Source: Nitrobacter vulgaris (GTDB lineage Bacteria; Pseudomonadota; Alphaproteobacteria; Rhizobiales; Xanthobacteraceae). From it: 64,000 bases of DNA. A program made the translations under genes and the position numbers. The DNA is taken from NCBI RefSeq assembly GCF_002028545.1, contig NZ_MWPQ01000031.1:1-64000 (forward strand). The letters are read 5' to 3'. The stretch's first letter is position 1. Each line of letters starts with the position of its first letter. Shown here piece after piece: positions 4,999-27,154 of the stretch. The notes beneath the pieces are model-generated. The model worked only from the letters and a program-made list of their open reading frames with translations, made no database searches and was not told the origin of the DNA.

Positions 4999-5205
4999 AT
5001 GGCAGGAATGAAGACCGCCGACATCCGCGCGATGACCCCCGACCAGATGGACGACGCCGTCGCCAATCTGAAGAAGGAGCGGTTCAATCTGCGCTTCCAG
5101 CGAGCCACCGGACAGCTTGAGAACACTTCGCGGTTGCGTGAAGCCCGCCGCGATATTGCACGGATCAAGACCATCGCCGCGCAAAAGCGCGACGCGAAGA
5201 AATAA
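4999..5205 (+). CDS. rpmC: 50S ribosomal protein L29
   Basis: 68 aa, normal for L29, a small all-helical protein at the tunnel exit. The longer open frame beginning at 4549 runs through rplP out of frame; the start at 4999 gives [16 protein letters not shown], and [19 protein letters not shown] is the family signature. Located between rplP and rpsQ as in nearly all bacteria. Confidence 0.97.
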
Positions 5206-23471: not shown

Positions 23472-25004
23472 ATGAAAGACATCCTCCAAACGCTCGACGC
23501 CCGGCGGATGGCCGCAAAGCGTGGCGGTGGCGAGAAGCGCATCGAAGCCCAGCACAAGCGCGGTAAGCTGACGGCTCGTGAGCGCATCGAGATTTTGCTC
23601 GACAAAGACTCGTTCGAAGAATTCGACATGTTCGTCGAGCATCGTTCGATCGAATTCGGCATGGAGAAATCGAAAGTGCCGGGCGACGGCGTGGTGACCG
23701 GATGGGGCACCATCAATGGCCGCAAGATTTTCATGTTCGCGAAAGACTTCACCGTATTCGGCGGCTCGCTGTCGGAGACGCATGCGCTGAAGATCACGAA
23801 AATCCAGGACATGGCATTGAAGGCCAAGGCACCGATCATCGGTCTTTATGATGCTGGTGGCGCGCGCATTCAGGAGGGCGTCGCAGCGCTGGCCGGTTAC
23901 TCCTATGTCTTTCGCCGCAATGTGCAGGCCTCGGGAGTGATCCCGCAGATCAGCGTCATCATGGGGCCGTGCGCGGGCGGCGATGTCTATTCGCCTGCCA
24001 TGACCGACTTCATCTTCATGGTGAAGAACACGAGCTACATGTTCGTTACTGGCCCCGATGTGGTGAAGACAGTCACCAATGAGGTGGTGTCCGCGGAAGA
24101 ACTCGGCGGCGCCAGCGTGCATGCCACCAAGTCGTCGATTGCCGATGGCGCGTTCGAAAACGATGTCGAGGCGATCTTGCAGATGCGGCGCCTGATCGAT
24201 TTCCTGCCGAGCAACAACACCGACGGTGTTCCGGAATGGCCGAGTTTCGATGATATCGAGCGCACCGACGACTCGCTCAATACGCTGGTGCCGGACAATC
24301 CCAACAAGCCTTACGATATCAAGGAACTGATCCTGAAGGTCGTGGACGAGGGCGACTTCTTCGAGATCGCGGAAACGTTCGCGAAAAACATTGTCACCGG
24401 CTTCGGCCGCATTGCCGGGCGCACGGTGGGCTTCGTCGCCAACCAGCCGATGGTGCTGGCCGGCGTGCTCGACTCGGATGCGTCACGCAAGGCCGCGCGC
24501 TTTGTTCGCTTTTGCGATGCCTTCAATATTCCGATTGTGACCTTCGTGGACGTGCCGGGCTTTTTGCCGGGCACCGCGCAGGAATACGGCGGGCTGATCA
24601 AGCACGGCGCGAAGCTCTTGTTCGCCTATTCGCAATGTACGGTGCCGCTCGTCACAGTCATCACGCGAAAGGCCTACGGCGGCGCGTTCGACGTGATGGC
24701 ATCAAAAGAGATCGGCGCCGACGTGAACTACGCCTGGCCGACCGCTCAGATCGCGGTGATGGGCGCCAAGGGCGCGGTTGAGATCATCTTCCGCGGCGAT
24801 ATCGGCGACGCGGAGAAGATCGCCGCGCGCACGAAGGAGTACGAGGATCGATTCCTGTCGCCGTTTATCGCCGCCGAGCGAGGCTACATCGACGACGTCA
24901 TCATGCCGCACTCGACCCGCAAGCGCATCGCTCGCGCGCTGGCGATGCTGCGTGACAAGCACGTCGACGCGCCCATGAAGAAGCATGACAATATTCCGTT
25001 GTGA
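23472..25004 (+). CDS. pccB: Propionyl-CoA carboxylase beta subunit
   Basis: 510 aa, normal length. Carboxyltransferase subunit that moves CO2 from biotin to propionyl-CoA to form (S)-methylmalonyl-CoA. [20 protein letters not shown]-like N-terminal sequence and two crotonase-like halves are visible: [20 protein letters not shown] with [17 protein letters not shown], and [20 protein letters not shown] with [15 protein letters not shown]. The biotin-carboxylase partner pccA is not in the window. A GGGTCT/AGACCC inverted repeat (23431-23461) lies just upstream. Confidence 0.95.
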
Positions 25005-25131
25005 ATAATCTCGCTCAACGCTTCCGCCTAACGCCGGCCTGGTTGCTTTCAGGGCAAAGCGGACGTCAACCATTCCACAACCCTCGCCGATACCGTCGAA
25101 AATGACCCATAGCGGACTTCTTTGATCCAGA

Positions 25132-25145
25132 TCAATCAAAACGCT
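25132..25145. promoter_or_regulatory. FNR/FixK-type binding site upstream of the DUF1254 gene
   Basis: TTGATCCAGATCAA, an exact match to the TTGAT-N4-ATCAA consensus. The site centre is about 69 nt upstream of the ATG at 25208. If it acts as a class II site at -41.5, transcription would begin near 25180, with GATTGT at 25165-25170 in about the -10 position. Site recognition is direct from sequence; function is inferred. Confidence 0.7.
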
Positions 25146-25207
25146 GTAGTCGCTGATTGTCTGGCCACGCCATCCGTCGCCGTCCTGGGATATTGAGGAG
25201 GAGCTCC

Positions 25208-26635
25208 ATGAAGTGTCTATCGTCGCTTGCTGCGGTATTGTCGGGTTTAACTCTCATGGTCTCGACATTGACCCCGAGCGCTGCCCAATCGATTTCCGCG
25301 GACGAGGCACACGCTATCGCTACGGAGGCGTATGTCTACTTCTATCCGCTCGTGACGATGGACGTGACGCGCAAGCAGCTCAACAATTCCGATCCGAAGA
25401 CCGGAAGTATCGGCGGTCCTCCCAACACTTTCGATAATATCCAGGCCTACCCCACTGCGGATATGAGGGCAGTGGTGCGACCCAACTTTGACACGTTGTA
25501 CTCGAGCGCCTGGCTGGACCTGACCAGCGAGCCCATGATCGTTTCGGTTCCGGATACCGGTGGCCGTTACTACCTGCTGCCGATGCTCGACATGTGGACC
25601 GATGTGTTTGCGTCGCCAGGATCGCGCACGACAGGCACCAAGGCGGCCAATTTCCTGGTTGCGCCTCCGGGCTGGAATGGAAGCGTGCCGGAGGGTGTCA
25701 CGCGCATCAATGCGCCGACGCCCCATGTCTGGATAATCGGTCGCACCAGGACGGATGGTCCCGCCGACTATGCTTCAGTCCACGAAGTGCAGAAGGGCTA
25801 CAAGATCACGCCGCTGTCGGGATGGGGCAAACCCCCGGTCGCCGTTACGCAAACCATCGACCCCAGCGTCGATGTCAAGACTCCGCCGAAGGCGCAGGTT
25901 GATACGATGGCGGGCGATAAGTTCTTTGCGTATGCAGCCGAACTGCTCAAAGCCAACCCGCCGCACATCACCGATGAACCGATCATCGCGCGCATGAAGC
26001 GGATCGGCCTCGAACCGGGCAAGAGCTTCGATATTACCAAAGTTGATGCAACCACACGCAAAGCCATCGAAGACGCGCCGACACAGGGTCTAAAGCTGAT
26101 GGCATGGAAGCTCCCGACATTGGCGCGCGTAGCAAACCACTGGTCCATGAATACTGATACGATGGGTGTCTACGGGACTTATTATCTGAAGCGTGCAATC
26201 GTGGCTCAGGCTGGACTTGGTGCCAATCTGCCGGAAGATGCGATCTATCCGCTCAGCGTTGGCGATGAAAACGGCAAGCCGCTCGACGGTGCAAACAAGT
26301 ACACCATCCACTTCGCCAAAGACGCGGTGCCGCCGGTCGACGCATTCTGGTCAGTCACCCTGTACGATAACGAAGGATTCCAGGTTGCGAATCCGGTTAA
26401 TCGTTTTGCGGTGAGCAGCTGGATGCCGTTCAAGCGCGACGCCGACGGGTCGCTGACGCTCTACATCCAGAACGCAAATCCCGGCAGCGATCACGAAGCC
26501 AACTGGCTGCCTGCGCCTAAAGGCCCGTTCAACCTCACCATGCGTCTCTATGCGCCGAAATCGGAGGCGTTGACCGGCGTATGGAATCCGCCGACCATCA
26601 AGTCGGTGGATGGTGACATCATGGGCCGGCGGTGA
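25208..26635 (+). CDS. Secreted DUF1254/DUF1214 protein
   Basis: 475 aa from ATG 25208, preceded by GAGGAGGAGCTCC, a strong ribosome binding site; an in-frame start at 25157 lies upstream of it. The signal peptide is MKCLSSLAAVLSGLTLMVST, cleaved near SAAQS. DUF1254 occupies roughly 40-190 (YVYFYPLVTMDVTRKQL; RPNFDTLYSSAWLDL) and DUF1214 the C-terminus (AFWSVTLYDNEGFQVANPVN; SDHEANWLPAPKGPFNLTMR). Biochemical function of the family is unknown. The upstream FNR/FixK-like box suggests oxygen-dependent expression. Confidence 0.9.
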   Translation: MKCLSSLAAVLSGLTLMVSTLTPSAAQSISADEAHAIATEAYVYFYPLVTMDVTRKQLNNSDPKTGSIGGPPNTFDNIQAYPTADMRAVVRPNFDTLYSSAWLDLTSEPMIVSVPDTGGRYYLLPMLDMWTDVFASPGSRTTGTKAANFLVAPPGWNGSVPEGVTRINAPTPHVWIIGRTRTDGPADYASVHEVQKGYKITPLSGWGKPPVAVTQTIDPSVDVKTPPKAQVDTMAGDKFFAYAAELLKANPPHITDEPIIARMKRIGLEPGKSFDITKVDATTRKAIEDAPTQGLKLMAWKLPTLARVANHWSMNTDTMGVYGTYYLKRAIVAQAGLGANLPEDAIYPLSVGDENGKPLDGANKYTIHFAKDAVPPVDAFWSVTLYDNEGFQVANPVNRFAVSSWMPFKRDADGSLTLYIQNANPGSDHEANWLPAPKGPFNLTMRLYAPKSEALTGVWNPPTIKSVDGDIMGRR

Positions 26636-26680
26636 CGGCAGATACTGGAGCGGACGTGGTCCGAATTAATTAAGGATGCG

Positions 26681-27154
26681 CTACTTCGCGCTCAGCAGCT
26701 TAAACAGCGGCGCGAGGTAGCTGATTTCCTGGCCCGATGTTGGCGTGGTGCGGCTGATGAAGTCGAAGATCTTGCCGTCCTTCAGGCCGTAATTGGCGAG
26801 CCGGGTCACCTGGCGGTTCTTGTCGAAATAGATCGCGATCACACGCTGATCGATGACGCTCTGCTGCATGAAGGCGACCTTCCGCTCGGCGCGCTGCGAG
26901 ATGTAATAAAACACCTCGCCGTTCAGCGTCGCGACCGTGGATGGGGTTCCCATTACGATCAGCACCTGATCCTGGCTTGCGCCGATCTGGATTTGCTCGA
27001 GCGCGCCGGGGGGGAGGATATAGCCCTTCTGAAAGGTTTCGCCGGTGCAGCCGGCCATGACCGCGCACACCAGCGTGGCGGCGAGCGTCGCGCGCAGACG
27101 AGGGCGTCGCGTCGCGGCGTATCCGGGTGCTTTCTTCGGGACTGACACTGTCAT
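26681..27154 (-). CDS. bamE: Outer-membrane assembly lipoprotein BamE (OmlA/SmpA family)
   Basis: 157 aa on the minus strand. Part of the BAM complex that inserts beta-barrel proteins into the outer membrane. The lipobox VMAGC lies at about residues 31-35 after a hydrophobic stretch. The SmpA/OmlA domain follows: EQIQIGASQDQVLIVMGTPS and EVFYYISQRAERKVAF. It is divergent from the CBP3-like gene, with about 105 nt between the starts, an arrangement frequent in Rhizobiales. Confidence 0.92.
   Translation of the reverse strand: MTVSVPKKAPGYAATRRPRLRATLAATLVCAVMAGCTGETFQKGYILPPGALEQIQIGASQDQVLIVMGTPSTVATLNGEVFYYISQRAERKVAFMQQSVIDQRVIAIYFDKNRQVTRLANYGLKDGKIFDFISRTTPTSGQEISYLAPLFKLLSAK

Follow-up and report, generated by a model that had tools for sequence, protein, structure and literature searches.

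We propose a model for the regulation of a DUF1254/DUF1214 gene of Nitrobacter, which lies in the window analysed here (the whole stretch of 64,000 nucleotides). In the model, which we hold with fairly high confidence, the gene would form part of a horizontally acquired single-gene unit that is activated by FixK under low oxygen in the class II manner, with its product being exported. Under low oxygen, a FixK-type regulator of Nitrobacter, of the CRP/FNR family, would bind TTGATCCAGATCAA, whose centre is placed some 41.5 nt ahead of the predicted start of transcription. As a class II activator, FixK bound at this site would contact RNA polymerase, and the activation would lead to the production of the DUF1254/DUF1214 protein, which would then be exported across the inner membrane. 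We infer the binding, the activation, the oxygen dependence in Nitrobacter and the export. The first-pass annotation had proposed a link of this gene to a low-oxygen regulon, and the link is supported by the conservation of the box in the gene's clade, by a second subfamily in Bradyrhizobium, by the class II geometry and by the presence of two FixK-type regulators; the annotation left the box as FNR or FixK type, of which FixK rather than FNR is likely the regulator. It should be kept in mind that the case for a regulatory box rests on the conservation tests, one box alone being weak evidence.

The box is a TTGAT-N4-ATCAA dyad on the forward strand, which matches the consensus exactly and is conserved in orthologues. 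It was correctly described at first as exact and as lying upstream of the start codon, but its position was noted 10 nt too high (25132-25145 instead of the true 25122-25135), and the distance from its last base to the ATG at 25208 is measured as 72 nt rather than about 69 nt, with the box centre about 80 nt ahead of the ATG. The compatibility with class II activation is borne out, with a −10-like hexamer being present at the spacing that an activator centred at −41.5 calls for. This putative −10 element, placed from the class II spacing, is TGTCTG at 25158-25163 on the forward strand (TTGTCT one base earlier), a weak match, and transcription is predicted to start at about 25170. The Shine-Dalgarno-like GAGGAGGAG (25195-25203, forward strand), as read from the sequence, is likely the Shine-Dalgarno of the gene. 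Per window, 0.04 exact matches to the box are expected by chance with shuffling and 0.05 with a first-order Markov model, and the chance of an exact box within 200 nt before one named gene is 1.6e-4. Two other roles of TTGATCCAGATCAA were considered and rejected: an action on the preceding gene pccB is ruled out by the position downstream of the pccB stop, and an intrinsic terminator is ruled out by eye, as the arms are short and AT-rich and a T run is absent.

The gene (25208-26635, forward strand) encodes a 475-aa protein that is probably exported and that has both Pfam domains assigned to it before, DUF1254 (E 2.5e-53) and DUF1214 (E 1.7e-35), each above the gathering score. The earlier description of the protein as secreted is backed by a signal-peptide-like N-terminus seen by eye, MKCLSSLAAVLSGLTLMVSTLTPSAAQ, which reads as a Sec-type signal peptide. 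A search of NCBIfam with the protein returned no family. For the AlphaFold model (mean pLDDT 77), the only good-scoring structural matches are VPA0106, VPA0735 and one Burkholderia protein (6ans), and the structure search gave no function because all three are uncharacterised. Our guess is that the protein probably does some work in the envelope or periplasm that the cell needs when oxygen is limiting.

The box and the gene together lie in an insert of 1.67 kb (25015-26680, forward strand) that is without a counterpart at the same place in other Nitrobacter genomes. It is flanked, outside the unit, on the left by the gene of a propionyl-CoA carboxylase beta subunit-like carboxyltransferase (pccB, 23472-25004, forward strand) and on the right by that of a BamE-domain protein (bamE, 26681-27154, reverse strand). 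In two other Nitrobacter loci, L154 and L155, the homology to the window ends at 25014 or 25004 and restarts at 26681 or 26676, and since the homology skips the insert, pccB adjoins bamE there, with the empty-site junction of L154 being clean to within 2 nt. The genome of L155 (G001) has the DUF1254 gene at another place, close to a recombinase-like gene, and in seven of the eight other Nitrobacter genomes a close orthologue was not found. Moreover, the G+C content of the insert is 58.0%, versus 60.0% for the window, and its gene has a GC3 of 71%, versus 80% for pccB. The best reading is that the box and the gene form a self-contained, horizontally acquired single-gene unit.

The conservation of the box was followed in a tree sample of 81 sequences, namely 80 named orthologues and the window gene. 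A search of the orthologue upstream regions, as the first-pass annotation had advised, showed the box to be kept throughout the gene's own clade and to be absent outside Nitrobacteraceae in the sample. The clade (support 99/96) consists of two Nitrobacter and six Bradyrhizobium members, and all eight carry the box in the 300 nt upstream, as an exact match in seven and as TTGATCTAAGTCAA in one, while their gene neighbourhoods differ, several being unrelated. If the box is taken as centred at −41.5, TTAGCT, TTGGCT or TGTCTG falls at −12 to −7 in the clade promoters, exactly or displaced by a single base, and the central four bases of the box vary within the clade (CCAG, GTAG, CTAG, CTAA). The box is also present in five more Bradyrhizobium orthologues at 67-73% identity, two of which are a close pair; searches of upstream regions found it neither in most Bradyrhizobium orthologues at 65-71% identity nor in the nearest outgroups, L079 and L080. 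Across the 81 orthologues the box is present in 13 of 22 Nitrobacteraceae versus 0 of 59 others (Fisher p 1e-9; this p value and the one below overstate independence because the sampled rows are related), and for the flanks this criterion gives a background rate of 0.7% per upstream region. The tree needs five changes of box state, at least four of them forced by well-supported branches, as compared with 12.3 for shuffled labels.

The box recurs before a second DUF1254/DUF1214 subfamily, which is 42-48% identical and for which the Pfam assignment was confirmed with L223; several of its members have an RR-containing, twin-arginine-like N-terminus. With at most one mismatch allowed, the box is found in 10 of 20 sampled upstream regions of Bradyrhizobium (genus g24) versus 0 of 20 in the family's other genera (Fisher p 4e-4). 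The loci inspected look like single-gene units in varied neighbourhoods, with the box mostly 65-75 nt before the start. Two more DUF1254 genes were seen in genome G392, presumably that of B. diazoefficiens USDA110. One, near 2.909 Mb, is preceded by TTGACCTGCATCAA at −80, with TATCCT placed as a −10 element would be. The other, near 2.917 Mb, belongs to an operon in which it comes after a sulfatase gene whose start follows an exact TTGATCTGCATCAA. Another sulfatase-like gene further down stands behind this box too, so that the DUF1254 gene near 2.917 Mb is flanked by two such genes with it (L219:559-572 and 5124-5137). A generic link to sulfatases, as this operon might suggest, was rejected, with none seen by eye beside the Nitrobacter gene or the inspected boxed genes of the second subfamily. 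From gene-number arithmetic we infer that the gene near 2.917 Mb is bll2664. In published arrays bll2664 (DUF1254) rises 3.9-fold in anoxia and drops 2.3-fold in an nnrR mutant, and it was given a weak site at −384 (PMC6710368). The arrangement in G392 suggests that bll2664 is driven from the promoter of the sulfatase gene, not from the weak site, which would explain its regulation better.

Candidate regulators are present in the Nitrobacter genome (3.9 Mb). Two FixK-type regulators, L161 and L162, both have the ETVSR recognition-helix motif. L162 has a cysteine, LPMCRRDIGDYLGLTLETVSR, just ahead of the helix-turn-helix, which by our reading would be the FixK2-type residue, C183 in B. diazoefficiens FixK2 (PMC2908626, PMC9104804); the conserved cysteine marks the FixK of Bradyrhizobiaceae (PMC2908626). 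The L161 protein scores below the cut-off of the NCBIfam Caulobacter FixK family, and a FixJ-like response regulator adjoins its gene, the fixK gene on contig C23. A third CRP/FNR protein on contig C1 (L163; L166:1920-2645) is 35% identical to FixK and has N-terminal cysteines, LCRSCDVRHKGMCGAL, and because of this cysteine cluster a true FNR may exist in the genome. A published prediction for this bacterial family gives few FNR targets and a FixK regulon that is well conserved and best defined (PMC2908626), and the observed distribution of boxes matches it.

The genome has 15 exact boxes, compared with 3.2 (first-order) to 5.3 (second-order) expected, so that a good part of them may be chance and a single box is weak evidence. 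Some seven of these precede plausible starts, those of the DUF1254/DUF1214 gene, a DUF3300 gene, a PPK2 operon, a SulP transporter, an AI-2E-family transporter, a phosphoketolase and a cytochrome b561, while several are inside coding sequence; a box is also present ahead of alcohol dehydrogenase. As side observations, contig C23 has a low-oxygen island (L007:3800-17300) with four exact boxes and genes for DUF3300, a histidine kinase, PPK2, SulP, the FixJ-like and FixK-type regulators, acetate kinase and the AI-2E-family transporter, where the DUF3300 gene, whose family likewise has no known function, is preceded by an exact FixK box, with ATTTTT close to where a −10 element would lie (L007:5458). 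Around the FixK2-type gene on contig C66 (L165, L232) there is a second cluster, with near-consensus boxes and genes for UspA-like, CBS, alcohol dehydrogenase and CoA-ligase/GNAT proteins. On contig C56 an exact box (L009:2555) at the very end of one gene and just before a second, signalling-type gene may be a coding coincidence or the promoter of the second gene.

Besides the model, three other explanations of TTGATCCAGATCAA are weighed. That it is a chance palindrome having no regulatory role is, in our view, highly improbable: although about 0.05 exact matches are expected per window and several of the 15 genome boxes are inside coding sequence, chance would hardly account for the conservation in the whole clade of eight, the limitation to the family with the extended FixK regulon and the reappearance before the second subfamily. 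It is very unlikely, too, that the box merely moved along with the gene and is kept by common descent with no present function. In its favour are the mobility of the gene and, for several pairs, an aligned homology that starts about 15-25 nt ahead of the box; however, the two half-sites and the −10 block are preserved amid non-coding DNA that has diverged, the central four bases vary as is expected for a selected site, and the tree calls for about five box-state changes, at least four of them forced.

A different question is which protein reads a functional box. It could be read mainly by another CRP/FNR protein, of the nitric-oxide responsive NnrR/DNR type or FNR, with the signal perhaps being NO or nitrite. 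It has been argued that NnrR and FixK2 have a box in common, and bll2664 falls in the nnrR mutant (PMC6710368); moreover, the third CRP/FNR protein (L163, L166) has its N-terminal cysteines, and Nitrobacter lives on nitrite. We nevertheless consider such a reader unlikely, in that the perfect TTGAT-N4-ATCAA fits FixK and FNR targets are predicted to be few in the family (PMC2908626). Activation by FixK under low oxygen is thus the reading that we retain.

The type of regulation is already known, and what is new is the assignment of DUF1254/DUF1214 to FixK control, in more than one subfamily. We are inclined to think, with somewhat less confidence than in the model itself, that in Bradyrhizobium and Nitrobacter DUF1254/DUF1214 is a recurrent, mobile part of the low-oxygen programme under FixK, with at least two and probably four subfamilies having been boxed several times independently. 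If this is true, an exported DUF1254/DUF1214 protein would be useful specifically under oxygen limitation in these two genera. This matters for a widespread family that has solved structures and no known function: the FixK link tells when a phenotype should be sought, namely in microoxic or denitrifying growth and, in Bradyrhizobium, in nodules, and it points to B. diazoefficiens as a tractable host, for which the published arrays back the link partly. A literature search for a low-oxygen transcriptome of Nitrobacter found nothing useful.

Finally, we compare the unit with known systems. The Vibrio parahaemolyticus proteins VPA0106 (PDB 3u07) and VPA0735 (2p3y, 3vb9) share the two-domain DUF1254/DUF1214 family and the fold, but are only about 20-28% identical over the structural alignment, and an oxygen link was not found for them. 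Caulobacter CC_2518 (DUF1254) appears with fixK and fixT in one iron-response table, changing in the same direction (PMC3751524), the co-variation there being with iron. Closer is bll2664, whose identity with the G392 gene is taken from the arithmetic above: it is likewise a DUF1254/DUF1214 gene and, by our reading, behind an exact FixK box, and it is anoxia-induced and nnrR-dependent (PMC6710368), but it is a distant paralogue of the Nitrobacter gene and shares its operon with a sulfatase gene ahead of it. For the FixLJ-FixK2 regulon of B. diazoefficiens, the FixK consensus is TTG(A/C)-N6-(T/G)CAA (PMC5582078, PMC9104804), the nosR start is 40.5 bp from the box axis (PMC5582078), and the phosphoketolase-acetate kinase genes are fixK2-dependent (PMC9104804). 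The Nitrobacter unit differs in its host, which oxidises nitrite, in its target, the mobile DUF1254/DUF1214 gene, and in that its regulation is predicted; the two systems have in common the box, the class II-like distance, a FixK2-type regulator with its cysteine and a phosphoketolase target.
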